Shown in pieces: positions 44 to 13,605 of a stretch of 64,000 nt of DNA (position 1 is its first letter; each line of letters begins with the position of its first letter). Source of the DNA: Roseateles puraquae (GTDB taxonomy: Bacteria; Pseudomonadota; Gammaproteobacteria; Burkholderiales; Burkholderiaceae_C); the NCBI RefSeq assembly GCF_002205845.1, contig NZ_NISI01000006.1, positions 310,001 through 374,000 on the forward strand, written 5' to 3'. The position numbers and the translations under genes are program-made. The notes beneath the pieces were generated by a model. It was not told the DNA's origin and did no database searches. It was given only the letters and a program-made list of their open reading frames with translations.

Positions 44-1297
44 TCAGTCGGCTGCGGCTGAACCGGGCTGGGCCTGCACGTCCAGGCCCAGACGCCGTGC
101 CAGCGGCGCCAGCGTCGGCCCCTGCACGAGCAGCGACAGCAGCACCACGACAAACGCGACATCGAAGAAGCGCCATCCGTCGGGCAGCCCGGCCAGCACC
201 GGGTAGGTTGCCAGCACGATGGGCACCGCCCCGCGCAGGCCCGACCACGCGACGAAACACTGCGCCCGCCAGCTGAATCCCAGCGGCGCGAGACACAGCA
301 CCACGGCGGCGGGCCGGGCGACGAACATCAGGCCTGCGGCCATCGCCAACGCGGGCCCGATGAGGCGCCACACCTCGTGCGGCGTCACCAGCAAGCCCAG
401 CAGCAGGAACAGCACCGCCTGCGCCAGCCAGGTGTAGCCATTGAGCCCCGGCAGGCTCATCACCGCCACACGCTCGCCGCGATGGCGAACCAGCAGGCCG
501 GCGAGGTAGACCGCCAGGAAGCCCGAGCCGCCACTGCGGTTGGTCACGGCGAACAGCAGCAGACCGAGGGCGGCCATCAAGAGCGCGGCCAGGCCGTCGT
601 GGTCATCGGCGATCGGCAGCCGGCGCACCCACCAGGCCGCCAGCATGCCGCCGCCCAGGCCCATCAGCAGGCCCAGCCCGAGCTGCTCGGCCAGCAGCGG
701 CAACAGGTCGCCTGCGCCGGCCACGCGCAGGTCGCCCGCCTGGCCCAAGGGGGTCAGCCAGGCGATGAGGCCGAGCGTGAGCACCATGGCCATCGGGTCG
801 TTCATGGCCGACTCGACCTCGATGGTGGCTGCCAGCCGCGGCGCCAGGCGCAACTGGCTGGCGCTGAACTGGGCGAACACCGCGGCCGCGTCGGTGGACG
901 ACACCGCCGCGCCCAGCAACAGCCCTTCCACCCAGCTCACGCCCAGCACGGCACGCGCCAGACCTGCCACGATCAAGGCCGTGACGGCCACGCCCACCGT
1001 GGCCAGCAGGCCCGCCGGCCACATGCCGCGGCGCACATCCACCCAGCGGGTGCGCAACCCGCCGTCGAACAGGATGAGGGCCAGCGCGAGATTGCCCACG
1101 TTGACCGCCAGCCGATGGTTGTCAAAAGGCAGGCCCAACGGCCCGTCCACCCCGGTGAGCATGCCCACCGCCATGAACACGAGCAGATGCGACAGGCCGA
1201 AGCGGTGGGTGTAGAGCGCCCCCGCGATGGCGACCAGCACGAGGGCGGCCACCGCCGCCGTCAGCAGCTCGGGCCCGGCGGCGATGTCATGCAGCAC
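44..1297 (-). CDS. CPA1-family cation/proton antiporter
   Basis: A 417-residue polytopic inner-membrane protein built almost entirely of hydrophobic segments (about 12). The central ESAMNDP stretch (around residues 162-168) is the membrane-embedded Asn-Asp pair typical of CPA1 Na+/H+ or K+/H+ exchangers of the NhaP/CvrA type; the preceding SSTDAAAVF segment is also characteristic. Family members of the NhaP2 group usually carry a cytosolic TrkA-C domain after the membrane part; this protein stops without one. It lies 13 bp downstream of the MscS gene on the same strand, so the two are probably co-transcribed and both serve ion or osmotic homeostasis. The transported cation cannot be told from sequence. 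Confidence 0.88.
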   Translation of the reverse strand: MLHDIAAGPELLTAAVAALVLVAIAGALYTHRFGLSHLLVFMAVGMLTGVDGPLGLPFDNHRLAVNVGNLALALILFDGGLRTRWVDVRRGMWPAGLLATVGVAVTALIVAGLARAVLGVSWVEGLLLGAAVSSTDAAAVFAQFSASQLRLAPRLAATIEVESAMNDPMAMVLTLGLIAWLTPLGQAGDLRVAGAGDLLPLLAEQLGLGLLMGLGGGMLAAWWVRRLPIADDHDGLAALLMAALGLLLFAVTNRSGGSGFLAVYLAGLLVRHRGERVAVMSLPGLNGYTWLAQAVLFLLLGLLVTPHEVWRLIGPALAMAAGLMFVARPAAVVLCLAPLGFSWRAQCFVAWSGLRGAVPIVLATYPVLAGLPDGWRFFDVAFVVVLLSLLVQGPTLAPLARRLGLDVQAQPGSAAAD

Positions 1298-1310
1298 GGG
1301 TCAGCCTGCC

Positions 1311-2456
1311 TCAGCCTGCGGGCTGGGGCACGATGTCAGGCGCATCGGGCTGCGGACCCGGCCGACCACCCGAGCCTGGCAGACCGACCACCTGCAGGGT
1401 GTTGGACACGTAGGCGAAGTTCAGTCCTCGCGCCTGCAACGCCCGCATCAAGGCCAGGTTCAAGGCCTGTTGGCGGTCCATGTAGACGTCGTAGCTCGGG
1501 TCCTTCACGCGGTAGACCACCTCGAAGTTCAGCGCGTTCTGGCCAAAGCCCTTGAAATGGGCGCGCACGTACTCCAGCAACGGGTCGGCCTCGATCAGCT
1601 GCTGCACCAGCGGCGGCACGCCGGCCACCTCGTCGGCGGTGGCGTCGTAGGTGATACCGAAGCTGAACAGCACCCGCCGCGTCTGCAGCCGCTTGAAGTT
1701 GGCCACCGTGCGCTTGAGCAGCTCGGCGTTGGACATGACGATCTGCTCGCCGCCCAGGCTTCGGATGCGCGTCGTCTTCAATCCGACCCGCTCGACCGTG
1801 CCCGTCACGTCGCCCACCGTGATGGAGTCGCCCACCTCGAAGGGCTTGTCCACCGCAATCGCCAGCGACGCGAACAGGTCGCTCAGGATGTTCTGCACGG
1901 CCAGTGCCACCGCGATGCCGCCGATGCCCAGGCTCGCCACGAAGGCAGTGATGTTGACGCCCAGGTTGGACAGCACCGCCAGCACGACCACCACCCACAC
2001 CGCGCCGCGCGCCCCCCAGCCGAGCAAGGTGGCCGAGGCGGACAGCGCCGCTCCGCCGCCATGGCGCTGCTGGTAGCTCTGCAGCAGGCGTGCCACCGCT
2101 TCCTGACCCCACAGCCCCAGCTGCAGCGCGACCACGGCGAACCACAGCTGGCCGACACGGTCGTGCCAGCGGTCGTCCAGCGGCAGCATCTTCAGGCCCA
2201 CCAGCAAGCCGGTGATCCAGATCAGGGCCGCATTGGTGCGCTCCAGCACACCCACCAGATGGTCGTCTACCGTCGTGCGGGTGCGGGCCGACAGCGCACG
2301 CAGGCGGCGCACCAGCAGGCTCAGGCCCACACGCAGCAGCAAGATGGTCGCCAGCCCCGCGAGCACCGCGGGCAGCAGCTCAGCCCAGCCGAGGTCAGGC
2401 GACAGGCGATCGGCACGGGCGAGGAATTCATGCCAGGTCATCGGCAGCTCCTTCAA
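1311..2456 (-). CDS. MscS-family mechanosensitive ion channel
   Basis: A 381-residue membrane protein with four to five N-terminal hydrophobic segments, a pore-lining Gly/Ala-rich helix (around residues 165-190, containing GIGGIAVALA) and then the MscS beta domain, recognised by the FEVGDSITVGDVTGTV stretch. The C-terminal third is the alpha/beta vestibule. Such channels open under membrane tension and release solutes on hypo-osmotic shock. It has a longer N-terminus than minimal E. coli MscS (286 aa), as in YbdG/YnaI-like or cyanobacterial members. It is first in a two-gene unit with the CPA1 antiporter. Confidence 0.9.
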   Translation of the reverse strand: MKELPMTWHEFLARADRLSPDLGWAELLPAVLAGLATILLLRVGLSLLVRRLRALSARTRTTVDDHLVGVLERTNAALIWITGLLVGLKMLPLDDRWHDRVGQLWFAVVALQLGLWGQEAVARLLQSYQQRHGGGAALSASATLLGWGARGAVWVVVVLAVLSNLGVNITAFVASLGIGGIAVALAVQNILSDLFASLAIAVDKPFEVGDSITVGDVTGTVERVGLKTTRIRSLGGEQIVMSNAELLKRTVANFKRLQTRRVLFSFGITYDATADEVAGVPPLVQQLIEADPLLEYVRAHFKGFGQNALNFEVVYRVKDPSYDVYMDRQQALNLALMRALQARGLNFAYVSNTLQVVGLPGSGGRPGPQPDAPDIVPQPAG

Positions 2457-2641
2457 TCACAAAGGCACACGCTAGGGCGGGCGCGGCGCGCCGTCTGTCG
2501 GCAGCCCGGCGCCCTGGCTGTGGGCCACGGCTGACACGGCACGGGATGCCGGGTGCACAACGCGGCCTCGGCTGACAGGCGTCGGCCGCGCCCGCCCCTA
2601 ACGTCGATCATCACCGCCAAGATCACCGGCAAGGAGCGCCC

Positions 2642-2929
2642 ATGGACACCACCACCCACCACGACCTCACCGCGCTGTTCGCCCAGCTGGGCCTGCCGGA
2701 CTCGCCGCGCGAGATCCAGGCCTTCATCCGGCTCCACCGGCCCCTGCCGCAGACGCTGAACCTGTCGGAGGCGCCGTTCTGGAATGCCGCCCAGGTGGCC
2801 TTCCTGCGCGAACAGTGGCACCAGGACGACGGCGACTGGTGCGTGCCCATCGACCAGCTCAACGCCGCGCTGCGGGAGCACCCCGATCCGGAGGAGCTCA
2901 CGCAGGCGCCGGACAGCCCCCTCGCATGA
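2642..2929 (+). CDS. DUF2789 family protein
   Basis: A 95-residue soluble protein recognised as DUF2789: it starts MDTTTHHDLTALFAQLGLP and keeps the acidic, Trp-containing middle (REQWHQDDGDW). No function is established for the family. A Shine-Dalgarno-like AAGGAG lies just before the ATG. Its TGA overlaps the ATG of the next gene by 4 bp (ATGA), so it is translationally coupled to the PHB-depolymerase-like esterase. Confidence 0.85.
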   Translation: MDTTTHHDLTALFAQLGLPDSPREIQAFIRLHRPLPQTLNLSEAPFWNAAQVAFLREQWHQDDGDWCVPIDQLNAALREHPDPEELTQAPDSPLA

Positions 2930-3879
2930 AGCTGCCCTCCTGGACGGCCCTGCTCGGCCGCCAGGCAGCGCTTCTGCGCTCGGCCGGTTCGGCGCTCGGC
3001 ACGCGCTACCGCCCGCCACCGGGAGACGGCCAATGGTTGATGGGACTGGTCATGGCGGCCGATGGCCCACGGCGCTACTACCTCTTCCGGCCGGCCGGCG
3101 TGCGCTTCGGGGAGCGCTTGCCGCTGCTGGTGATGCTGCATGGCTGCCACCAGGACGCGCGTACCTTTGCGGCCAGCACCCGCATGAACCGCATCGCCGC
3201 CCGCGAGCGGTTTCTGGTGCTCTACCCGGAGCAGACGCGGCTCGCGCATGCGCAGGGCTGCTGGCACTGGTTCGACACCCAGGGCGGGCGGGCGCAGGCG
3301 GAGAGCGCCTGGATCCTGCGCGCCATCGATCAGGTCCGGCTGCTGTACAGCGCTGACCCCAGCCGCACCGCCATCGCCGGGCTGTCTGCGGGCGCCAGCA
3401 TGGCGGCACTGCTGGCCACGCAGCATCCGCAGCGCTTCCGCGCCGTGGTCATGCATTCCGGGGTGCCGCCCGGCCTCGCACCGACCGCCGCCACCGCCCT
3501 GCGTGCGATGCGCGGGCAGCGCATCATGGCGCCCTTGCCGCCCGGCGAGCACCGCTGGCCACCGCTGCTGGCCCTGCATGGCGAAGCAGACGGCATCGTG
3601 TCGCCGCGCAACGCCGCAGCCGCCGTCCAACGCTGGGCCGACGCTGCGGGTGCCACGCCAGGGCCACCGCAGCCGCAGCGCCGCGGCCAGCGCCATCCGT
3701 TCACGGTGACGCATTACCGCTGCGGCCGCGAGCTGGTGGCCACGCTTGCCTTGATCCACGACCTCGGCCACGCCTGGAGCGGCGGCGCCGCCCGCCAGCG
3801 CTTTGGCGAGCCCCGCGGGCCGGACGCGTCGCGCCTGGCCTGGCGCTTCATCGCTCGCCAGATGGCGGCCCCCCGCTGA
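2926..3879 (+). CDS. PHB depolymerase family esterase (alpha/beta hydrolase)
   Basis: A 317-residue alpha/beta hydrolase of the Esterase_PHB family. The oxyanion segment LHGCHQ is at residues 71-76, the nucleophile box GLSAG puts Ser154 as catalytic, Asp222 in HGEADG is the likely acid, and His281 in LGHAWSGG fits the family's catalytic His. No signal peptide is evident, so an intracellular polyhydroxyalkanoate or oligomer esterase role is more likely than extracellular polymer hydrolysis. The start at 2926 is chosen because it gives the ATGA overlap with the DUF2789 gene; in-frame codons upstream lie inside that gene. The true substrate is unknown. Confidence 0.85.
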   Translation: MKLPSWTALLGRQAALLRSAGSALGTRYRPPPGDGQWLMGLVMAADGPRRYYLFRPAGVRFGERLPLLVMLHGCHQDARTFAASTRMNRIAARERFLVLYPEQTRLAHAQGCWHWFDTQGGRAQAESAWILRAIDQVRLLYSADPSRTAIAGLSAGASMAALLATQHPQRFRAVVMHSGVPPGLAPTAATALRAMRGQRIMAPLPPGEHRWPPLLALHGEADGIVSPRNAAAAVQRWADAAGATPGPPQPQRRGQRHPFTVTHYRCGRELVATLALIHDLGHAWSGGAARQRFGEPRGPDASRLAWRFIARQMAAPR

Positions 3880-3898
3880 ATCTCGGCGATGGCTAGGG

Positions 3899-3932
3899 TT
3901 GCAGGCCGGTCATTATTTCGATAATAATCGAA
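3899..3932 (+). promoter_or_regulatory. ars promoter with ArsR-type operator
   Basis: A perfect 6-bp inverted repeat, TTCGAT-AATA-ATCGAA, occupies 3917-3932 and ends 2 bp before the arsR ATG. A TTGCAG hexamer at 3899-3904 and TAATAA at 3922-3927 are spaced 17 bp apart, a plausible -35/-10 pair with the operator lying over the -10. The predicted start of transcription falls at about 3934, essentially at the start codon, and no Shine-Dalgarno is present, so the transcript may be leaderless. The AT-rich block stands out in GC-rich surroundings. Confidence 0.7.
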
Positions 3933-3934
3933 CT

Positions 3935-4255
3935 ATGGATGAATCAGCCGTCGTCAAGGCCTTGGCCGCCCTCGCCCAACCCTTGCGCCTGCAGGTCTTT
4001 CGCGCCCTTGTCGTCGTCGGCGATGCCGGCCTCACGCCAGGCGCCATCCAGGAAGGCCTGGGCGTGGCGCCGGCGACGCTATCCTTCCACCTGAAAGAGC
4101 TCGTGAACGCGGGCCTCGTCACCCAGGAGCGCGCCAGCCGCAACCTGATCTACCGCGCCCACTACGCCCAGATGAACGACCTGCTGGGCTACCTCACCGA
4201 GAACTGCTGCCAGGGCAGCGCCTGCACCCCCTCTGCTGCCGCCTGCTGCCGCTGA
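3935..4255 (+). CDS. arsR: ArsR-family arsenical-responsive repressor
   Basis: A 106-residue winged-helix repressor. The N-terminal KALAALAQPLRLQVFRAL helix and the recognition region VAPATLSFHLKELVNAGLV are classic ArsR/SmtB. The usual CVC metal site in helix 3 is absent. Instead Cys91, Cys92 and Cys97 (ENCCQGSAC) lie near the C-terminus, close to the arrangement described for the Acidithiobacillus ferrooxidans-type ArsR (two adjacent Cys plus one further on), with another Cys pair at 104-105. It probably binds As(III) and releases the operator just upstream. It opens the arsR-arsC-aquaporin unit and is 5 bp from arsC. Confidence 0.92.
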   Translation: MDESAVVKALAALAQPLRLQVFRALVVVGDAGLTPGAIQEGLGVAPATLSFHLKELVNAGLVTQERASRNLIYRAHYAQMNDLLGYLTENCCQGSACTPSAAACCR

Positions 4256-4260
4256 ACACC

Positions 4261-4764
4261 ATGACCACCCACGTCCTCATCCTCTGCACCCACAACTCGG
4301 CCCGCAGCGTGTTGGCTGAAGGCATGCTCAACCACTGGGCCAAGAAGCTCGGCAAGGACGTGCAGGCCCACAGTGCCGGCAGCGCCCCGAGCGGCACGGT
4401 CAACCCCTTCGCGCTCGAGGCCCTGCACCTCGCGGGGGTCGACACCCACGGCGTGCGCAGCAAGAGCTGGGACGAGTTCACCGGCCCTGACGCACCGCCG
4501 CTGTCGCTCGTGATCACGGTGTGCGACAGCGCCGCGGGCGAAACCTGCCCGCTCTTCTACGGCGGCAAGGCCGGCGAGCCGCTCAAGGTGCACTGGGGCT
4601 ACCCCGATCCGTCCGACACGCGCGGCGACGCCGCCAAGCGCCGCGCCTTTGAGCTGACGCGCCAGGCCATTGGCTACCGCATGCTGCAGCTGCTGCACCT
4701 GCCGATCGCCACCATGAGCAAGCCGCGACTGCAGCAGGCGCTGGCCGAGATCGCCGCCAGCTGA
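4261..4764 (+). CDS. arsC: Arsenate reductase, LMW-phosphatase type
   Basis: A 167-residue enzyme of the low-molecular-weight tyrosine phosphatase fold that reduces As(V) to As(III). The P-loop is CTHNSAR (Cys9 to Arg15, a CX5R motif). Cys88 and Cys96 in VCDSAAGETC are the likely relay cysteines for the intramolecular disulfide cascade, and Asp116 in the YPDP segment is the likely general acid. The reductant (thioredoxin, glutaredoxin or mycothiol) cannot be assigned. It is followed 1 bp later by the aquaporin start, so its As(III) product is made next to a channel gene rather than next to an arsB or acr3 pump. Confidence 0.92.
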   Translation: MTTHVLILCTHNSARSVLAEGMLNHWAKKLGKDVQAHSAGSAPSGTVNPFALEALHLAGVDTHGVRSKSWDEFTGPDAPPLSLVITVCDSAAGETCPLFYGGKAGEPLKVHWGYPDPSDTRGDAAKRRAFELTRQAIGYRMLQLLHLPIATMSKPRLQQALAEIAAS

Positions 4765-4765
4765 G

Positions 4766-5437
4766 ATGCGCCTGCCTCGCCAACTTCTTGCCGAGGCGCT
4801 CGGCACGGCGCTGCTGCTGGCCGTGGTCATCGGCTCCGGCGTGATGGCCGAGCGGCTGTCGGGCGGCAATGTCGCGCTGGCATTGCTGGCCAACACAGCG
4901 GCCACCGTCGGCGGGCTGTATGTGCTGATCGAGGTGTTCGGCCCGATCAGCGGCGCTCATTTCAACCCGGCGGTCAGCGCCGTCATGGCCTGGCGTGGCG
5001 AGCTGCCGCGGGCGGCGCTGCTGCCCTTCGTCGCCGCGCAACTGTTGGGCGCCTGGGCCGGTGCGCTGCTGGCGCATGCGATGTTCGAGTTGCCGCTGCT
5101 GCAGTTCTCCACCCACGTGCGCACCGGCACGGGCCAATGGCTGGCCGAAGGCGTGGCCACCTTCGGCCTGCTGCTGGTCATCCTGCGCGCACCGGCCGGG
5201 CGCGCAGCCGGGCTGGTGGCCGCCTACATCGGCGCGGCCTACTGGTTCACCGCCTCCACCTCGTTCGCCAACCCGGCGGCCGTGTTCGGCCGGCTGTTCA
5301 GCGACAGCTTTGCCGGCATCGCACCCGCCAGCGCGCCGGGCTTCATGCTGGCCGAGCTGGCTGGCGCTGCGCTGGCTGTGGTGACGAACCGGCTGCTGGC
5401 ACCCCAACCCGACACCCGCACAGGCCCCGTGCCCTGA
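4766..5437 (+). CDS. Aquaporin of the ars operon (AqpS-like)
   Basis: A 223-residue six-helix MIP-family channel. The two half-helix NPA motifs are intact: Asn67-Pro-Ala in SGAHFNPAVS and Asn169-Pro-Ala in TSFANPAAVF. In ordinary aquaporins the second NPA is followed directly by the selectivity-filter Arg (NPAR); here that position is Ala172. Replacement of this Arg is, from memory, also a feature of Sinorhizobium AqpS, an ars-operon aquaglyceroporin that lets As(III) flow out down its gradient. Its place 1 bp after arsC and the absence of an efflux pump gene support an arsenite exit role, which is inferred. Confidence 0.87.
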   Translation: MRLPRQLLAEALGTALLLAVVIGSGVMAERLSGGNVALALLANTAATVGGLYVLIEVFGPISGAHFNPAVSAVMAWRGELPRAALLPFVAAQLLGAWAGALLAHAMFELPLLQFSTHVRTGTGQWLAEGVATFGLLLVILRAPAGRAAGLVAAYIGAAYWFTASTSFANPAAVFGRLFSDSFAGIAPASAPGFMLAELAGAALAVVTNRLLAPQPDTRTGPVP

Positions 5438-5472
5438 GCGAGCACGCGAGCCCGGACGAAAGACCCATGAAC

Positions 5473-5497
5473 AGCGGGGCCACGGCCCCGCTCTTCT
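5473..5497 (+). terminator. Rho-independent terminator after the arsRC-aquaporin unit
   Basis: Eight-base-pair GC-rich stem AGCGGGGC / GCCCCGCT around a CACG loop, followed by a short pyrimidine tract CTTCT. It separates the arsR-led unit from the MarR-led unit, which has its own upstream promoter-like region. The T-tract is weak, so some read-through is possible. Confidence 0.6.
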
Positions 5498-5503
5498 GAC
5501 CCA

Positions 5504-5526
5504 TTTAGTTGCTATTGACAACCAAA
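5504..5526 (+). promoter_or_regulatory. Candidate MarR operator/promoter
   Basis: An imperfect palindrome with arms of the form TTNGTTG / CAACNAA, centred at 5515, sits about 48 bp before the MarR start codon. A perfect -35-like TTGACA (5515-5520) is embedded in it; the -10 region (CAACAT near 5539-5544) is poor. The geometry is what an autoregulated MarR gene would show, with the repressor covering the -35. Confidence 0.5.
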
Positions 5527-5573
5527 CCAGCCCCCCGGCAACATGCGAGCGCCTTCCCACCTCCCGCCCCGCC

Positions 5574-6065
5574 ATGACCGAGTCCACCGCCGGCGCGCTG
5601 CTGCGCGAGGTTGCCCGCCTGTACACCCGCGCGCAGCGGGTCGTGGCCGACTGCTGTCGCACCACCAGCACCCAGTGCCATCTGTTGACCGAGCTGGGGC
5701 GATCCGGGCCGCTGTCGCTGTCGGAACTCGGCCTGCGGGTGAGCCTGGAGAAGAGCTGGGTGTCGCGCGCGGTGGAGGCCATGGTTGCCCGTGGGCTGGT
5801 GACCAAGGCGCCGAACCCGTCCGACGCAAGGAGTTGGCTCGTCACGCTCACCGCCGACGGCGAACGCACGGTGCATGAGTTGAACCAGACCCTCGACGAG
5901 CACGCGCAGCAGCTGCTGGCATCGCTGAGCGAGCGTGACCGCGCCGCCGTCGAGACCTCGTTGTTGACGCTCCTGAAAGCCTTGCGCGACGACCCGGCAG
6001 CCACCTGCTGCCTGCCGCCCGCGGGACGCCAGGAGCCCCTGCCGGGAAGCCCGACATGTCGCTGA
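5574..6065 (+). CDS. MarR-family regulator with clustered cysteines
   Basis: A 163-residue winged-helix regulator; the recognition segment is LGLRVSLEKSWVSRAVEAMVARGLV followed by the wing (NPSDARSWLVTLT), typical of MarR. Cys27, Cys28 and Cys35 lie close together in the N-terminal dimerisation helices (DCCRTTSTQC), and another Cys pair is in the tail. This could form a three-thiolate site for a trivalent arsenical, which would fit its position at the head of an arsenic detoxification unit; this is inference. It overlaps the next gene by 10 bp. The region from about residue 145 is Pro-rich and probably disordered. Confidence 0.85.
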   Translation: MTESTAGALLREVARLYTRAQRVVADCCRTTSTQCHLLTELGRSGPLSLSELGLRVSLEKSWVSRAVEAMVARGLVTKAPNPSDARSWLVTLTADGERTVHELNQTLDEHAQQLLASLSERDRAAVETSLLTLLKALRDDPAATCCLPPAGRQEPLPGSPTCR

Positions 6066-7897
6066 ACGCCCCCATCACCCTTCGCCCCGCCGGTCCGTCG
6101 GACTGGCCCGCCATCCAGCGCCTGCTGCTGGCGCATCAACTGCCCACCGCCGGTGCGCAGGATCATCTCGCCACCACCTTGCTCGCCCTGCGCGCGGGCG
6201 AGGTCGTCGGCTGCGCCGGTGCCGAGGTCTACGGCAGCATCGCGCTGCTGCGCTCGGTGGCCGTCGCACCGGGCCTGCAGCGCCAGGGCATCGGTCGCAC
6301 GCTCGTCGAGCGGTTGCTGCACGAGGCCCGCGCACGTGACATCGCCACGCTCTATCTGCTGACCGTCACGGCGCCGGAGTACTTCGCAGCGTATGGGTTC
6401 AAGCGCCTGCCCGTCGAACAAGCGCCGGCGGCGCTGAAGGCCTCGGCCGAGTTCCAGGGCGCCTGCCCGGCCTGTGCCGCGTTGATGGCGCTGCCGCTGC
6501 GCGAGGTGCCCACGGCACCGGCCGACCTGCCGGTGGCCGTACTCGGCGCCGGACCGGTGGGCCTGGCCGCACTGGCCCAGCTGCTGGAGCGCGGCCTGCC
6601 CGCCGTGGTGCTGGAAGCCGGCGCCACCGTCGGCGCCCACCTGGTGGACTACGGGCACGTGCAGCTCTTCTCGCCGTGGCGCTTCAACGTCGACCCCGCC
6701 ATGGCCCGCCTGCTGGCACCCACCGGCTGGCAGGCCCCTCCGGCCGACGTGTTGCCACGCGCCGCGGAGGTCGTCGCCCAGGTGCTGCAGCCCTTTGCCG
6801 ACTTGCCGGCGGCCGCGGCCTGCCTGCGACGGGGCGCCCGCGTAACCGGCATCAGCCGGGAAGGCCTGGACAAGGTCAAGACCGGCGGTCGCGACCGCGC
6901 TGCCTTCGTGGTGCACTACCAGCTCGGTGGCCAGCCCCGCACGCTGCGCGCCCGCGCCGTCATCGACGCGACCGGCACCTGGGGTCAACCCAACCCCCTT
7001 GGTGCCGATGGCCTGCCGGCGGAGGGTGAAGCGCGAGCGGCTGATCGCATCGTCTATGGCATCCCCGACATCGCCGGCGCCCAGCGCGCACGCTATGCCG
7101 GACGGCACACCTTGGTGGTGGGCGCGGGCCATTCAGCCGCCAATGCGCTGCTGGCGCTGGCCGACCTGGCACGCGAGGTGCCGGGCACGCGGCTGGCCTG
7201 GGCCGTGCGCACGCCGCAGCTGCGGCGCGTGTTCGGCGGGGGTGCGGCTGACGCTTTGCCGGCCCGGGGGGCCCTGGGTGCCTCGCTGCGCCGCCTGCGC
7301 GATGGCGGCATGCTCGCCTACCACGCCGGGCTGCACATCACGCGCATCGAGCGCCACGGCGAGCAACTGCGCGTGGTGGGCCAGGACGCCCGGCAGCAAC
7401 CGGTCGTCGTCGACGGCCTGGACGAGATCATTTGCGCCACCGGCCAACGGCCGGACCTGAGCCTGACGCGCGAGCTGCGCCTGCGGCTGGACCCGGCGCT
7501 GGAATCCACCGAGGCACTGGGTCCGCTGATCGATCCCAACCTGCACAGCTGCGGCACAGTGCGGCCCCACGGCCACCGCGAACTCGCCCATCCTGAACTC
7601 GGCTTCTACACCGTCGGTGTGAAAAGTTATGGGCGCGCCCCGACCTTCCTGATGGCCACCGGCTTCGAGCAGGTGCGCTCGGTGGTGGCCGCCCTGGCTG
7701 GCGATCTGGCGGCTGCCGATCGGGTCGAGCTGGATCTGCCCGAGACGGGTGTGTGCTCGACGGACCAGGCGCCCCCGACCCCGGGCGAGGGGTACGGCAG
7801 CTGCTGTGGCCCGGCGCCAGCGCGGCAGGTCGAGGCCGCCGTGGCGGTCTCCCTCGCGCCTCGAAGCGCCACCACGGCGTCGGGCTGCTGCGGCTGA
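6056..7897 (+). CDS. Fused ArsN2-like acetyltransferase / ArsO-like flavoprotein monooxygenase
   Basis: A 613-residue two-domain protein. Residues 1-150 are a GNAT acetyltransferase with the acetyl-CoA loop QRQGIG (75-80), resembling ArsN2. Residues 158-560 are an FAD- and NAD(P)-binding oxidoreductase of the flavin-containing monooxygenase type: GAGPVG at 164-169 for FAD, GAGHSA at 356-361 for NADPH, and an ATG motif in IICATGQRP. The tail is Cys-rich (VCSTD, GSCCG and a terminal GCCG), suggesting soft-metal binding. In other ars clusters ArsN2 and ArsO are separate genes. The likely job is chemical modification of an arsenical before export by the MFS protein whose ATG lies 2 bp downstream. 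The exact reaction is unknown. Confidence 0.82.
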   Translation: MSLNAPITLRPAGPSDWPAIQRLLLAHQLPTAGAQDHLATTLLALRAGEVVGCAGAEVYGSIALLRSVAVAPGLQRQGIGRTLVERLLHEARARDIATLYLLTVTAPEYFAAYGFKRLPVEQAPAALKASAEFQGACPACAALMALPLREVPTAPADLPVAVLGAGPVGLAALAQLLERGLPAVVLEAGATVGAHLVDYGHVQLFSPWRFNVDPAMARLLAPTGWQAPPADVLPRAAEVVAQVLQPFADLPAAAACLRRGARVTGISREGLDKVKTGGRDRAAFVVHYQLGGQPRTLRARAVIDATGTWGQPNPLGADGLPAEGEARAADRIVYGIPDIAGAQRARYAGRHTLVVGAGHSAANALLALADLAREVPGTRLAWAVRTPQLRRVFGGGAADALPARGALGASLRRLRDGGMLAYHAGLHITRIERHGEQLRVVGQDARQQPVVVDGLDEIICATGQRPDLSLTRELRLRLDPALESTEALGPLIDPNLHSCGTVRPHGHRELAHPELGFYTVGVKSYGRAPTFLMATGFEQVRSVVAALAGDLAAADRVELDLPETGVCSTDQAPPTPGEGYGSCCGPAPARQVEAAVAVSLAPRSATTASGCCG

Positions 7898-7899
7898 CG

Positions 7900-9108
7900 A
7901 TGGGGGCAGCGCGCCTGCATGTCGTCACCACGCTGGGCACGGCCCAGACGCTGGCCTGGGCGTCGTCGTACTACCTGCCCGCGGTGCTCGCGCGCCCGAT
8001 GGCAGCGGATGTCGGTGTGGCGGAGCCCACGGTCTTTGCCGCCTTCTCGGCGGCGCTGGTGGTGTCGGCCCTGATCGGCCCGCAGGCCGGCCGGTCCATC
8101 GACCGCTGGGGCGGCCGGCCGGTGCTCATGGCCACCAGCGGGGCCTTCGCGCTGGGCCTGGCCCTGCTGGCGCTGGCGAGCGGCCCCTTCAGCCTTTTCG
8201 CGGCCTGGCTGGTGATGGGTGTGGCGATGGGCAGCGGCCTGTATGAAGCCGCCTTCGCGGGCCTCGTGCGCCTGTACGGGCATGAGGCTCGCGGCGCCAT
8301 CACCGGCATCACGCTGATCGCCGGGTTTGCCAGCACGGTGGGCTGGCCCTTGTCCGCGGCGCTCGAGCACGCCTTCGGCTGGCGCGGCGCCTGCTGGGCC
8401 TGGACAGGCCTGCATCTGGTGGTGGGCCTGCCCTTGAATGCCTGGGTGCCGCGGGCCGAGGCCCGGCCTGCGCCGCCACCTCGGGCCGCATCGAATGCCT
8501 CGCACGCATCGGCCCCCGTGGCCGAGTCGCCCGTAGTGCCTTGGCGCAGCGCCGTGCTGCTGGCGTGGGTGTTCGCGGTGACGCTGTTCATCAGCACCGC
8601 CATGGCCGCCCACCTGCCGCATCTGCTGGATGCGGTGGGCAGCGCGCCGGGGGCGGCCATTGCGATCGGCGCGCTCGTCGGCCCCGCGCAGGTGGCAGGC
8701 CGGCTGCTCGAGTTCGGCCTGCTGCGCCAGATGCATCCGCTGATCTCGGCCCGGACGGCAGCCGTCATGCATCCGCTGGGGGCTGGCCTGTTGGCCGTGT
8801 TGGGAGCGCCGGTGGCCGCGGTCTTCGCGCTGCTGCACGGCGCTGGCAACGGCATCCTCACGATCACCAAGGGCACGCTGCCGCTGGCCCTGTTCGGCAG
8901 CGCCGGCTACGGTCAGCGCCAGGGCTTGCTGATGCTCCCGGCGCGCCTCGGCCAGGCGCTGTCACCCTGGCTGTTCGGCCTGCTGCTTGTGCGCTTTGGT
9001 GCGGCGGCCCTGTGGTTCTCGGTGGCGCTGGCGCTCAGTGCGCTGGCAGCACTGCTCCTCATTCCCGCACCGGAGGCCCCGCATGAAAGTCCGCACCGCC
9101 ATACCTGA
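7900..9108 (+). CDS. MFS transporter in the arsenic locus
   Basis: A 402-residue, roughly 12-helix major facilitator. The loop 2-3 signature DRWGGRPVLMATS and the matched GAG-rich helices fit drug:H+ antiporter-like MFS proteins. A Pro/Ala/His-rich loop (residues about 183-210) separates the two halves. I start it at 7900, 2 bp after the preceding stop; an in-frame ATG at 7753 lies deep inside the upstream gene. MFS proteins in ars operons (ArsK, ArsJ, ArsP-type) export arsenite, organoarsenicals or arseno-phosphoglycerate; which of these applies cannot be told. No adjacent GAPDH gene is present, which argues against an ArsJ role. Confidence 0.82.
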   Translation: MGAARLHVVTTLGTAQTLAWASSYYLPAVLARPMAADVGVAEPTVFAAFSAALVVSALIGPQAGRSIDRWGGRPVLMATSGAFALGLALLALASGPFSLFAAWLVMGVAMGSGLYEAAFAGLVRLYGHEARGAITGITLIAGFASTVGWPLSAALEHAFGWRGACWAWTGLHLVVGLPLNAWVPRAEARPAPPPRAASNASHASAPVAESPVVPWRSAVLLAWVFAVTLFISTAMAAHLPHLLDAVGSAPGAAIAIGALVGPAQVAGRLLEFGLLRQMHPLISARTAAVMHPLGAGLLAVLGAPVAAVFALLHGAGNGILTITKGTLPLALFGSAGYGQRQGLLMLPARLGQALSPWLFGLLLVRFGAAALWFSVALALSALAALLLIPAPEAPHESPHRHT

Positions 9109-9625
9109 CGACGCCGCTGCCATCGCGGCCATCTATGCGCCGATCGTCCGGCACACCGCCATCTCCTTCGAGACCGAGCCGCCAAGCGAGGCCGAGATGC
9201 GCGAACGCATCGAGAAGACGCTGGCCAGCCTGCCCTGGCTGGTGGCCGAGGACGCCGCGGGCGAGGTGGCTGGCTATGCCTACGCCAGCCGGCATCGAGA
9301 ACGTGCCGCTTATCAATGGTCGGTGGACGTGACCGTCTATGTGCGCGATGACGCCCGGGGCCAGGGCGTCGGGCGGGCGCTGTACGAACACCTTCTGCCG
9401 CTGCTGGCGGCACTGGGCTATCACCAGGCGTTTGCCGGCATCGCGCTGCCCAACGCCGGTAGCGTCGCGCTGCATGAAGCCGCCGGCTTTGCGGCCCTCG
9501 GCGTCTATCGCCGGGTCGGTTTCAAACTCGGGCAGTGGCGTGACGTGGGCTGGTGGCAGAAGGCGCTGCGCCCGACGGACGGCGCACCGCCGACCGCACC
9601 ACACCCGTTCAGCGCGCCGCGTTGA
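9083..9625 (+). CDS. GNAT acetyltransferase, ArsN1/phosphinothricin-type
   Basis: A 180-residue GNAT protein of the phosphinothricin/methionine sulfoximine acetyltransferase group: the N-terminus MKVRTAIPDDAAAIAAIYAP, the conserved TAISFETEPPS segment, the acetyl-CoA loop GQGVGRAL and the VGFKLGQWRDVGWWQ end are all typical. ArsN1 members acetylate the arsenic antibiotic arsinothricin and phosphinothricin; its place as the last gene of the arsenic unit supports that reading. The ATG at 9083 overlaps the MFS gene by 26 bp. Its 3' end overlaps the convergent halogenase gene by 17 bp. Confidence 0.85.
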   Translation: MKVRTAIPDDAAAIAAIYAPIVRHTAISFETEPPSEAEMRERIEKTLASLPWLVAEDAAGEVAGYAYASRHRERAAYQWSVDVTVYVRDDARGQGVGRALYEHLLPLLAALGYHQAFAGIALPNAGSVALHEAAGFAALGVYRRVGFKLGQWRDVGWWQKALRPTDGAPPTAPHPFSAPR

Positions 9626-11141
9626 TCTGCTGGATCAGCGCCCGGTGCGAGGGCAGATCGGCCACGGCGCGCTCGGCATAACGCTGGATCTTGGCGAATA
9701 CCTTGGCGGCCTCGTCCACGCGGGGAAAGTCGTCGCGGCCGGCGCTGAGGTCGGTGGGATAGCCCATGCCGTAGAGGATGTACTGGTAGTTGAAGAAGGC
9801 GAAGGTCTCGGTGTCGAGCACGAAGTCGAAGCGGCCCGGCGGGCGCAGGCGCCATTCCTCCAGCAGGCCGGCGAGCCGCTCGGGCAAGGTGGCCGGCGCG
9901 ATGTTGTCGCGCCAGAAGGGCTCGGGCCGGCGGCTGAGGGCGTAGTGCAGCTTCAGGAAGTTGATGATGTTGTCAAAGCGCGCCGTCATCAGCTCGTTGA
10001 AGCGCCGCGCTGGCGCGTGCATCGGGCCGCTGTGCGGCAGCATCTCGGCCACCATGCCCACGGCCGCCTCGATCAGCACCAGTCCGGTGGCCTCCAGCGG
10101 CTCCAGGAAGCCGGCGGACAGGCCGATGGCCACGCAGTTCTTGACCCACTGCTGCTCGCGGTAGCCCGGCGCGAACGGGATGCTGCGCAGGCCCAGGTCC
10201 TCGGCGCGGGCGCCGCAATAGGCCTGCAGCAGCTCGGCGGCGCGGTCATCGCTGATGTGGCTGCTGCTGTAGACGCAGCCCACGCCCCGCGCGCCGTTCA
10301 GGCCGATCTCCCACAGCCAGCCGGCCTCGTGCGCGGTGGCGATGGTGCAGCTTTCCATCACCGCCTCGTCGCCGAGCGGCACCTTGCAGGCCAGCGCCCG
10401 GTCGGCAAACAGCTGGCCGCGCGCCGACTTGAAAGGGCTGCCCAGCGCCCGGCCGATCAGCTCGGCGCGAAAGCCGCTGCAGTCGATGAAGAGGTCGGCC
10501 TCGAAGCGCTGCTGGCGATCGGTGTCGATGTGGGCGATGGCGGCCTGCCCGTCGAGCTGCACGGCACTGACCGTGCCGGCCTCATGCCGCACGCCCAGCT
10601 CGCGGGCGCGGTCGGCGAGCAAGCGCGCGAGCTTGTGCGCGTCGAAGTGATACGCGTAATTGAGCGGCGCGGCATAGCCGGCCTCGCCGGCGCGCTTGGG
10701 TGCGCGATGGGCGGCCGCCACCCGGGCCTGCAGCGTCATGGCCTCGGCGAAGGGCGCACGCACGGCTTCGTCCTGCAGCAGCCAGTAGGGCACGAGGTTG
10801 AGGTCTTCGGCGAAGTAGGGCGCCTCGAAGGGATGGAAGAAGGCATGCCGGCGCCCTGCCTCGGGCGCGTGGGCCCAGTCGACGAAGCGAATGCCCTGCT
10901 TGAGCGTGGCAGCGGTGGCGCGGATGAAGCGGGCCTCGTCGATGCCGAGGTACTGGAGCGTGTTGCGGATGGTCGGGAACGTGCCCTCGCCGACGCCGAC
11001 GGTGCTGATGTCGGGCGACTCCAGCAGCGTCACCTCCAGCTGGCTGCGCTCCGACAGCTTCAGCGCCTTGGCGAGGTAGGCCGCGGTCAGCCAGCCGGCG
11101 GTGCCGCCGCCGACGATGAGGATGCGTCGCTTGTTCGTCAT
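9609..11141 (-). CDS. Tryptophan-halogenase family flavin-dependent enzyme
   Basis: A 510-residue FADH2-dependent halogenase-fold protein. GGGTAGW (residues 11-17) is the flavin-binding glycine motif. Lys81 in TLKQGIRFVDW aligns by position with the catalytic lysine of PrnA-type halogenases, and SAGFLEPLEATG (342-353) supplies the conserved Glu region. The diagnostic WxWxIP motif, thought to suppress monooxygenase activity, appears as WLWEIG (275-280): Trp, Trp and Ile are kept but Pro is Gly. The gene is alone; no flavin reductase or biosynthetic neighbours are visible. Substrate is unknown and it could act on indoles, phenols or a macromolecule. Confidence 0.85.
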   Translation of the reverse strand: MTNKRRILIVGGGTAGWLTAAYLAKALKLSERSQLEVTLLESPDISTVGVGEGTFPTIRNTLQYLGIDEARFIRATAATLKQGIRFVDWAHAPEAGRRHAFFHPFEAPYFAEDLNLVPYWLLQDEAVRAPFAEAMTLQARVAAAHRAPKRAGEAGYAAPLNYAYHFDAHKLARLLADRARELGVRHEAGTVSAVQLDGQAAIAHIDTDRQQRFEADLFIDCSGFRAELIGRALGSPFKSARGQLFADRALACKVPLGDEAVMESCTIATAHEAGWLWEIGLNGARGVGCVYSSSHISDDRAAELLQAYCGARAEDLGLRSIPFAPGYREQQWVKNCVAIGLSAGFLEPLEATGLVLIEAAVGMVAEMLPHSGPMHAPARRFNELMTARFDNIINFLKLHYALSRRPEPFWRDNIAPATLPERLAGLLEEWRLRPPGRFDFVLDTETFAFFNYQYILYGMGYPTDLSAGRDDFPRVDEAAKVFAKIQRYAERAVADLPSHRALIQQINAAR

Positions 11142-11277: not shown

Positions 11278-11775
11278 TCATGCGCGGGTGTAGAGGTTCT
11301 TGAGCCATTGGTGGCCGGTCTGGGCGCCATGGCTCCAGTCGTCATCCTCGTCGCCCGGCGGGGCGACGTAGCCGGACGGGTTGAGCAGCTTCACCCGGCC
11401 GGCGCGAAAGGCCGACACGCGGTGGGTCACGAAGGTCAGGCCGTGCTCCAGCGCGGTGGCGGCCAGCAGGCCGTCGCGCGTGTTGGCGTAGGGCAGCTGG
11501 GCACGGCGGCGCACCACGGCGGCATCCACCGGCAGCACGCGGCCCTCGAAGGCCGGCATCACGCGCTGGTCGATCCAGTCGCGCACCAGGAGGCCGGCCG
11601 CGCGGTCCTTGCGGGCCAGCCGCGCCGCGGCGTTCTCGATCTCCAGCAGGTTGAGGGCCGAGATGAAGAGCTTGTGCCGCGGCAGGCCCGCCGCCCAGGC
11701 CGCCAGGCCCGCGTCGGCCGGGCCGGCCCGGGCCTTGCGCAGCTCCAGCACGATGCCGGTGTCGAGCAGGAACAT
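11278..11775 (-). CDS. vapC: VapC-type PIN-domain toxin
   Basis: A 165-residue PIN-domain ribonuclease. The N-terminal FLLDTGIVLELRK carries the first catalytic Asp, LNLLEIENAA the second acidic residue, and TRDGLLAATALEHGLTFVTHR the last acidic cluster, with the usual TRN/D pattern altered to TH near the end. The C-terminus is about 25 residues longer than typical VapC (GDEDDDWSHG onward). It follows its antitoxin with a TGATG one-base overlap, so they are translationally coupled. It probably cleaves tRNA or rRNA when free. Confidence 0.88.
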   Translation of the reverse strand: MFLLDTGIVLELRKARAGPADAGLAAWAAGLPRHKLFISALNLLEIENAAARLARKDRAAGLLVRDWIDQRVMPAFEGRVLPVDAAVVRRRAQLPYANTRDGLLAATALEHGLTFVTHRVSAFRAGRVKLLNPSGYVAPPGDEDDDWSHGAQTGHQWLKNLYTRA

Positions 11776-12026
11776 CAGCCGACGGGCTCGCGGTGTTCCC
11801 AGGCGCCTTCCGACGACGCCTCGGCCGTGTCGAGCGCCACCGCCTCGGGCAGGGCGAGCAGGTCCAGGATGCTCTCGGCCTCCCCGGTCAGGCGCCGGTA
11901 CTCGGCCATGCTCATCAGCACGTGCGTGGGCTGGCCGCGGTCGGTGATGAGCACGGGCTCGGCCTGGGCCAGGCGCTTGGCCTGGCTGACGTCCCGGTTG
12001 AACTCGCGGCTGCTCAGAAGCTTCAT
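11775..12026 (-). CDS. Phd/YefM-type antitoxin
   Basis: An 83-residue antitoxin. The N-terminal MKLLSSREFNRDVSQAKRLAQ and the VLITDRGQPTHVLMSMAEYRRL strand-helix are hallmarks of the Phd/YefM DNA-binding fold; the acidic, unstructured C-terminal part (from about residue 50) would wrap the PIN toxin. Longer in-frame starts exist upstream but add sequence with no family match, so the start at 12026 is preferred. Such proteins usually repress their own operon. Confidence 0.87.
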   Translation of the reverse strand: MKLLSSREFNRDVSQAKRLAQAEPVLITDRGQPTHVLMSMAEYRRLTGEAESILDLLALPEAVALDTAEASSEGAWEHREPVG

Positions 12027-12240
12027 CGTGCCGGCAATGTAGCGAGCCCCCGCCCGCCGCACAATGTGGATGTAGGTACGTCGGCACAAAGCGGTGAGAT
12101 CCGATGGACAGCGCAACCACGGCTGGCACAGTGCGCAGCGGCCGGTGACCTCGGGTTCAACCGGCTGGAGACAACGTTGTCTGACCCGGGTTTTCCTGGG
12201 TTCACACGACCTCATGAAAGCGCTTCCAGAAGAAGACCCC

Positions 12241-13605
12241 ATGGAATTCGACCTGCTCGCCACCCTGGCTGATGTGTTTGCCAAGCACGGCCCCGCCGCC
12301 CCGGCGGTGGCCCAGACCTACTCGCCCGGCGACTTCAGCATCCGCTTCTTCCTGCAACTGGCCATCATCCTGCTGGCCTGCCGCGTGGTCGGCTGGGCAG
12401 GGCGCAAGTTCCTGGCGCAGCCGCAGGTGGTGGGCGAGATGATTGCGGGTGTGCTGCTCGGCCCGTCGCTGTTCGGCATGCTCGCCCCCGAGGTGCAGGC
12501 TGCCATCTTCCCGAAGGAGATGCGCAATGTGCTCTACACCGGCGCGCAGCTGGGTGTGGGCCTGTACATGTTCCTGGTGGGCACGACGCTGCGGCTGGAC
12601 CACTTCGCCACCAAGGCGCGCAGCGCCATCGGCGTGTCGGTGGCAGGCATCACGGCGCCGTTTTTCTTCGCCTTCCTGATCACGCCGCTGCTGCTGACGG
12701 TGCCGGGCCTGTTCGCCGAGGGCATCTCCACCGCCAACGCGACGCTCTTCATGGGCGCCTGCATCGCCCTGACGGCCTTCCCGATGCTGGCGCGCATCAT
12801 CAATGAGCGCGGCCTGGCGAACACCTCGCTGGGCACGCTGTCGCTGACCGCGGGCGCCTTCGACGACGCGGTGTCGTGGTGCGTACTGGCGCTGGTGCTG
12901 GCCGCCTTCGGTGCGGGCCCAGGTGTGGCCGTGCTGGCCATCGGCGGGGGCGTGCTCTACGCCGCCTTCATCCTGCTGTTCGGCCGCCGGCTGCTCGCGC
13001 CGCTGGGTCGCATCGTCGAGCGTGAAGGGCACATGAGCACCACCATCCTGGGCGTCACGATGGCGCTGTTCTGCCTGTCGGCCTTCGTGATGGACGCGGT
13101 GGGCATCCACTCGATCTTCGGCGGCTTCATCCTGGGCGCGGTCATGCCGCGCGGGCTGTTCGCGGCGGAGCTGAAGAAGAAGGTCGAGCCCTTGGCCGTG
13201 GTGCTGCTGCTGCCGATGTTCTTCACCTACTCGGGCCTGAACACGCGGCTGGACATGATCGACACCATGGCCCTGCTGGCGATTGCGGGCGGCATCCTGG
13301 TGGTGTCGGTGCTGGCCAAGTTCGGCGCGTGCTACCTCGCGGCGCGCCTGGCCGGCGAAGACAACCGCACGGCACTCGGCATCGGCGCACTGATGAACTC
13401 GCGCGGGCTGATGGAGCTCATCATCATCAACATCGGCCTGCAGAAGGGCATCATCGGCCCGGCGCTGTTCTCGATGCTGGTGCTGATGGCCGTGGTGACC
13501 ACCATGATGGCCACGCCGCTGTTCGAAGCCGTCTATGGCCGCAAAGCGCGCGAGTCGGGCGAGCTGGACGCGCTGCCGCGCAACACGGCCGATTCCGCGG
13601 CCTGA
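12241..13605 (+). CDS. CPA2-family cation:proton antiporter
   Basis: A 454-residue membrane exchanger of the KefB/NapA superfamily. The QPQVVGEMIAGVLLGPSLFG segment (early helices) and the AGAFDDAVSWCVLA segment, with an Asp-Asp pair in the core helix, are typical of CPA2. GALMNSRGLMELI near the end is another family signature. There is no C-terminal TrkA-N (RCK) domain. Two starts are possible: ATG 12214 or ATG 12241; the latter is chosen because an AGAAGAAG stretch precedes it, but either could be used. The exchanged cation is not predictable. Confidence 0.85.
   Translation: MEFDLLATLADVFAKHGPAAPAVAQTYSPGDFSIRFFLQLAIILLACRVVGWAGRKFLAQPQVVGEMIAGVLLGPSLFGMLAPEVQAAIFPKEMRNVLYTGAQLGVGLYMFLVGTTLRLDHFATKARSAIGVSVAGITAPFFFAFLITPLLLTVPGLFAEGISTANATLFMGACIALTAFPMLARIINERGLANTSLGTLSLTAGAFDDAVSWCVLALVLAAFGAGPGVAVLAIGGGVLYAAFILLFGRRLLAPLGRIVEREGHMSTTILGVTMALFCLSAFVMDAVGIHSIFGGFILGAVMPRGLFAAELKKKVEPLAVVLLLPMFFTYSGLNTRLDMIDTMALLAIAGGILVVSVLAKFGACYLAARLAGEDNRTALGIGALMNSRGLMELIIINIGLQKGIIGPALFSMLVLMAVVTTMMATPLFEAVYGRKARESGELDALPRNTADSAA

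Follow-up and report, generated by a model that had tools for sequence, protein, structure and literature searches.

The window, a 64,000-nucleotide stretch of the Roseateles puraquae genome (C38:310001-374000), carries a seven-gene ars locus at 3935-9625, with every gene on the plus strand, which we read with a probability of roughly 0.6 as a two-unit arsenic detoxification locus, where unit 1 would combine ArsC with an aquaporin exit and unit 2 would serve the oxidation, acetylation and export of organoarsenicals together with ArsN1. In the proposed scheme, ArsC of the ArsR-controlled unit 1 would reduce arsenate, and As(OH)3 would leave down its own gradient via an AqpS-type channel, which takes the place of Acr3 in some relatives. 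In unit 2, the flavoprotein half of a fusion protein would oxidise trivalent organoarsenicals, its ArsN2 half would acetylate organoarsenicals, an ArsK-like MFS protein would export the product or whatever trivalent arsenical remains, and ArsN1 would acetylate arsinothricin, a function shown for a Pseudomonas enzyme in the available part of a published study (PMC6465285). Substrates, directions of transport and the signal of the MarR protein are predictions throughout. The genome lacks the usual arsenite pumps, with no Acr3, ArsB or ArsP found in the assembly, and the surprising part is that ArsA and ArsD are nevertheless kept beside an aquaporin in a second ars cluster, an association that recurs in the family.

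Families were assigned by NCBIfam and Pfam profile searches with each model's own cut-off (Table 1). The initial annotation had described seven genes in two units (arsR-arsC-aquaporin and MarR-fusion-MFS-ArsN1), which coordinates and gaps bear out: the intergenic distances are, in gene order, 5, 1, 136, -10, 2 and -26 bases, and the single gap of 136 bases, from the aquaporin to marR, fits two units with a break before marR. Its ArsN1 and ArsN2 labels also hold, since the respective cut-offs (NF040504, NF040501) are passed. Most parts of the seven-gene set are known, and what is new is the way they are arranged; the earlier remark that this is not a described set stands for the whole but not for unit 1, because pump-less arsR-arsC-aquaporin operons have been known since 2005, according to the available parts of two papers (PMC4435449, PMC6205960). 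The cysteine tail of ArsR is also present in relatives, judged by eye from the printed sequences. On the minus strand of the window, an ORF at 9609-11141, convergent with arsN1, reads by eye like a flavin-dependent tryptophan halogenase, and small overlapping ORFs at about 11278-12284 look similarly like a Phd-type antitoxin and a PIN-domain toxin.

Table 1. Features of the seven-gene ars locus (window positions) and profile matches of the second ars cluster on contig C1
Feature	Position	Strand	Evidence
Candidate ArsR operator, imperfect AT-rich dyad TTCGATAATAATCGAA	3917-3932	.	directly 5' of arsR; two mismatches to its own reverse complement
arsR, ArsR/SmtB repressor	3935-4255	+	C-terminal Cys cluster; NF033788 60.5 bits (cut-off 55)
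arsC, LMWP-type arsenate reductase relative	4261-4764	+	PF01451 (LMWPc) 55.5 bits, cut-off 23.2 passed; best NCBIfam match TIGR02691 52.1 bits, under cut-off 174.3
Aquaporin, AqpS-like	4766-5437	+	PF00230 61.8 bits (cut-off 25); two NPA motifs
GC-rich hairpin between units, possible end of unit 1	5473-5492	+	-17.1 kcal/mol including tail
Candidate MarR operator, MarR box TAGTTGCTATTGACAACC	5506-5523	+	overlaps a TTGACA element
marR, MarR-family regulator	5574-6065	+	PF01047 50 bits (cut-off 24.6)
Fusion of ArsN2 acetyltransferase and flavoprotein	6056-7897	+	ArsN2 at residues 16-145 (NF040501 145.9 bits, cut-off 125); flavoprotein at about 157-567; low-confidence Cys-bearing tail
MFS exporter, ArsK-like	7900-9108	+	NF033733 233 bits (cut-off 400)
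arsN1 family B, arsinothricin N-acetyltransferase	9083-9625	+	NF040504 254.8 bits, cut-off 210 passed
ArsD	second cluster, C1	divergent strand	128.7 bits, cut-off 90
ArsA	second cluster, C1	divergent strand	TIGR04291 895.9 bits, cut-off 650; two P-loops (GKGGVGKT motifs)
ArsH	second cluster, C1	aquaporin strand	408.7 bits, cut-off 292

Each unit appears to have its own control element. AT-rich elements stand 5' of arsR in the printed relatives as they do in the window, where the dyad is the candidate ArsR operator. Inspection by eye showed a hairpin similar to that between the units in 7 of the 14 segments from relatives (two of these 14 were excised at a wrong position); the terminator scan did not return it, its single terminator lying on the opposite strand, and the promoter scan of the locus found none. 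The MarR box is recognisable 5' of marR in 14/14 relatives, in degenerate form in L041, and a search of the genome gave one perfect site and two with 3 mismatches, with 0 for the reversed control. Five cysteines of MarR (27, 28, 35, 145 and 146) are invariant in 15/15 sequences, and we infer that unit 2 is under its own cysteine-rich MarR, acting at this conserved operator-like box. A second MarR box, present in the 14 relatives, has been lost from the window, which counts against our main reading.

The genome itself (G000) is a 6.06 Mb assembly of 43 contigs with a listed completeness of 100%. Profiles for the Acr3 superfamily (PF01758), Acr3 (TIGR00832), ArsB (PF02040) and ArsP (PF03773) gave 0 matches in this assembly, and neither acr3 nor arsB lies inside the seven-gene locus. 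TIGR00832 exceeds its cut-off in 18 of the 60 genomes of the relatives set, so the Acr3 model works among relatives; within the genus, Acr3 occurs in only one (G156) of 20 genomes, our own included. A check for arsB or acr3 elsewhere in the genome had been proposed along with the claim that no As(OH)3 pump is present: the search, run over the whole assembly with PF01758, TIGR00832 and PF02040, found none, and the claim stands as regards ArsB and Acr3 but is too strong as worded, as the MFS protein is a member of the broader ArsK group.

Unit 1 is of a known kind, the AqpS type: a MIP channel with two NPA motifs adjoins arsR and arsC, and the unit holds no other membrane transporter, the MFS gene sitting in the neighbouring unit 2; the assembly gave no Acr3, ArsB or ArsP match. 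Of the two routes initially suggested for As(III) made by ArsC, the aquaporin is supported as the likely exit, and the channel would then conduct As(III) outward. The solved AqpM has Arg at the position after the second NPA motif, where the window copy has Ala; Arg directly follows this motif in 0/25 relative rows, which include three contigs present twice, and Val does so in 8 of the 25. Loss of this Arg is usually read as a wider pore. A passive channel alone would not protect from external As(III), which speaks against the main reading; under As(V), detoxification by ArsC and aquaporin exit works, according to the available part of a review (PMC9454679).

The locus does not look like a chance assembly, because a congener (G030) repeats all seven genes in identical order at L037, answering the proposed search for this gene order in other genomes, and because aquaporin, marR and flavoprotein lie in one block in 11 of 20 fetched family regions. 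The seven genes are joined by a second arsC and arsH at L038, and also at L054 (G036:C79), where fusion and MFS genes are broken; arsR, arsC, aquaporin, arsH and marR of L054 still match full length beside them. Among 200 sampled family genomes, the two-domain fusion is present in 12 (13 rows, own included), a broken fusion in G036 and the flavoprotein without ArsN2 in six further genomes; the fusion row of G077 is flagged with one stop, although an open frame of 592 residues could be read there.

At these loci, aquaporin and Acr3 take each other's place. In the 19 genomes with a fusion or flavoprotein, Acr3 is over cut-off in 1/12 with an aquaporin at the locus versus 5/7 without (Fisher p 0.0095, kinship ignored), and in the collection scan the best 80 of at least 577 flavoprotein relatives include 14 loci with an aquaporin, 29 with Acr3 and 0 with both, kinship again being ignored, some contigs also belonging to the family region set and several loci ending at contig ends. 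In congener G156 the locus is present twice, once with Acr3 (L036) and once with the aquaporin (L038). This exclusion agrees with a published survey of ars operons, the available part of which reports 18/18 aquaporins (MIPs) standing without another transporter (PMC4435449). Counting against the main reading, G143, G182 and G077, each of which carries the aquaporin locus, have weak PF02040 matches (23-36 bits) that exceed the cut-off of this Pfam profile, the ArsB model applied to them; G180, G007 and G206 have SBF matches (100-132 bits) that do not pass the Acr3 model.

As a relative of ArsK, the MFS protein may itself be a pump, and the best surviving alternative takes it for the true As(III) pump, with the aquaporin only a helper or import valve and the whole an ordinary pump operon. 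The best family match of the protein is indeed ArsK, an arsenite MFS exporter, and its gene is the sole strong ArsK-like gene of the genome, the next match reaching 30 bits. ArsK reportedly exports arsenite, antimonite and methylarsenite, as the title of Shi 2018 has it. We nevertheless consider this alternative unlikely: the protein shares only 32% identity with the ArsK that PGAP names in R. rhizogenes and stays 167 bits under the model's cut-off, which 0/20 genus genomes exceed; its gene sits in the MarR unit with organoarsenical genes and not in the arsC unit; and it occurs both at loci with aquaporin and at loci with Acr3, accompanying either of two transporters that exclude each other. 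The failed ArsK model at the same time weakens the substrate assignment of the MFS protein, which counts against the two-unit reading too.

Within unit 2 of the two-unit reading, the monooxygenase half of the fusion had been taken for ArsO, an identity that we reject: it scores 33 bits on the ArsO model NF040505 (cut-off 425), and a PGAP-named ArsO and a relative of the flavoprotein are separate genes of one ars region on a Streptomyces sp. FR-008 plasmid (L056). This plasmid region also holds another NAD(P)/FAD oxidoreductase, and an MFS gene goes with the flavoprotein relative. No NCBIfam model fits the flavoprotein family, PDB sequence searches with the fusion gave only distant acetyltransferases, flavin monooxygenases and reductases, and our literature search found no biochemistry for the family, the last counting against the main reading. 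Among the best 80 loci of the at least 577 relatives, 66 have another ars gene and 14 the in-frame fusion, and an MFS gene comes immediately after the flavoprotein at 41 of the 76 with room for it, a pair that recurs in ars loci across several phyla. An alignment of 52 flavoproteins, that of the window and 51 selected among the 80 loci, shows no variation at Cys499 and Cys567 and hardly any at Cys583-584, a pattern compatible with thiols binding trivalent arsenic. The genome also has an ArsH over cut-off, so that a second organoarsenical oxidase could be partly redundant, another point against the main reading.

Other fusions and copies were met in the course of these searches. The ArsN2-flavoprotein fusion of Acetobacteraceae (L081, L094) stands apart from that of Burkholderiales on the tree, hinting at an independent origin, and one ORF (L055 7525-8451, from G129) apparently joins ArsN2-like and ArsN1-like domains, a different ArsN fusion. 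On plasmids, 126 records match the fusion and 0 cover 80% of it, with no plasmid copy of the fusion seen. We know of no report of the substrate of ArsN2 itself; its joining to the flavoprotein suggests one substrate for both halves, perhaps an amino-bearing trivalent organoarsenical.

The second ars cluster, reached by the ArsH search, is beyond the window and out of view of the initial annotation; it lies at the start of contig C1 (L147, C1:1-12000) at 972-5986, with arsR-arsC-arsC-aquaporin-arsH on one strand and arsD-arsA divergent, and its ArsD, ArsA and ArsH look intact. No pump gene follows arsA, where the next large ORF has weak similarity to a replicative helicase model, and a pump partner for ArsA (ArsB, Acr3 or ArsP) has 0 matches in the genome. 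Across the family, TIGR04291 is over cut-off in 109 of 399 genomes (116 rows). Scanned 6 kb around arsA where the contig allowed, these 116 regions hold Acr3 in 49 cases, ArsB in 5, an aquaporin in 18, other ars genes only in 5 and none of these in 39; aquaporin and Acr3 or ArsB occur jointly in 0/116, where chance would give 8.4 (hypergeometric 3e-6, kinship ignored). A quick ArsA tree requires six changes of the aquaporin label, of which supported branches force at least five, and the supported clade holding our own ArsA has an aquaporin in 8/8. There are two main layouts, one with arsDA divergent from arsR-arsC-aquaporin and one with a single operon arsR-arsC-aquaporin-arsD-arsA, the latter annotated with two arsC genes (arsR-arsC-arsC-aquaporin-arsD-arsA) on plasmids of Aquincola tertiaricarbonis and Sphaerotilus sulfidivorans; L214, L222 and L243 show other gene orders.

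Neither Acr3 nor ArsB is over cut-offs in the five divergent-layout genomes searched for both (G000, G154, G028, G180, G007); the genome-wide ArsB search left out G206, G277, G269, G299, G426, G354, G411 and six further aquaporin-ArsA genomes, and the Acr3 search those six. Three genomes speak against a strict exclusion rule: in G299 and G426 a further ArsA adjoins Acr3, and in G183 another ArsA adjoins ArsB on the same plasmid. Within 3 kb after arsA, no ORF is common to at least three of the 18 aquaporin loci among the matches listed. Membrane-like ORFs near arsA, listed for the first 61 ArsA loci, were considered as hidden permeases and rejected: among the aquaporin loci, those of L182, L183 and L185 have no NCBIfam match at 1e-10, and the best match of that in L189 is an L-lactate MFS model whose cut-off it misses.

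A bolder explanation would be that ArsD and ArsA have been recruited repeatedly to AqpS-type aquaporins, allowing ATP-coupled As(III) export without ArsB, Acr3 or ArsP by ATP-dependent delivery or gating, which we hold to be improbable. Its local version, in which ArsA and ArsD of the second cluster energise the aquaporin or deliver As(III) to it, as an ATP-dependent exporter on a channel scaffold, is more doubtful still. The make-up of the cluster, the split of the 116 ArsA genes between an aquaporin (18) and Acr3 or ArsB (54), the all-aquaporin clade, the two plasmid operons and the lack of a shared ORF after arsA argue for it. Against it, no energy coupling is known for aquaporins, which are channels, arsDA is absent from the window's own cluster, ArsDA could be a cytosolic As(III) buffer or work with the MFS protein, three of the 18 genomes (G183, G299, G426) hold another ArsA beside ArsB or Acr3, and the link between ArsDA and aquaporin is one of gene neighbourhood. 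Least probable is a pump gene hidden in an assembly gap, for instance at the IS21-like end of contig C1. In its favour, the contig stops about 970 bases past the arsH side of the second cluster, with a piece weakly similar to an IS21 transposase (30 bits, cut-off 160). Against it, the listed completeness is 100%, neither profile tests nor reading identified a transporter among the ORFs past arsA at the opposite side, and four relatives with arsDA divergent from arsR-arsC-aquaporin likewise lack Acr3 and ArsB over cut-offs.

The two-unit reading of the window's locus thus remains the one we prefer. ArsA owes its definition to the pumps that it drives, and recurrent arsDA-aquaporin clusters, some in genomes without a found pump, allow a clean test of whether an ATPase is coupled to a channel or ArsDA has a role without a pump; we found no report of this pairing in the open-licence literature. 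Unit 2, for its part, points to a widespread arsenic-linked flavoprotein family, present in several phyla and often adjoining an MFS gene.

Several known systems offer points of comparison. The second cluster has the same ArsA and ArsD families as the ArsA-pump systems of Castillo and Saier (2010), who proposed ArsB, ArsP, CstA and Acr3 as partners of ArsA and placed 5/24 cluster-1 ArsA genes outside pump operons, three of them with a pump elsewhere, but its only arsenic transporter is an aquaporin, a kind absent from the partner list in the available part of that paper (PMC2963123). The MFS protein belongs to the same group as ArsK, and the PGAP-named ArsK of R. rhizogenes adjoins a relative of the flavoprotein as the MFS gene does here; unlike ArsK, it fails the NF033733 cut-off and falls in a separate, supported clade. 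Another parallel is ArsV and ArsW, a flavoprotein and a membrane exporter that are said to be adjacent. By description, to which our comparison is confined, they are an oxidase and an exporter acting on MAs(III), named methylarsenite oxidase and methylarsenate exporter in the available account (Chen 2021, via PMC10080717), whereas the oxidoreductase of the window is fused to ArsN2. Closest to unit 1 is the Sinorhizobium meliloti aqpS operon, where, as far as the available parts of the sources describe it, ArsR and ArsC go with an aquaporin in the place of the pump, arsenate is reduced and As(III) exits downhill (Yang 2005, via PMC6205960, PMC4435449, PMC4531530), and to this arrangement the window adds a second, MarR unit with the fusion, the MFS protein and ArsN1.
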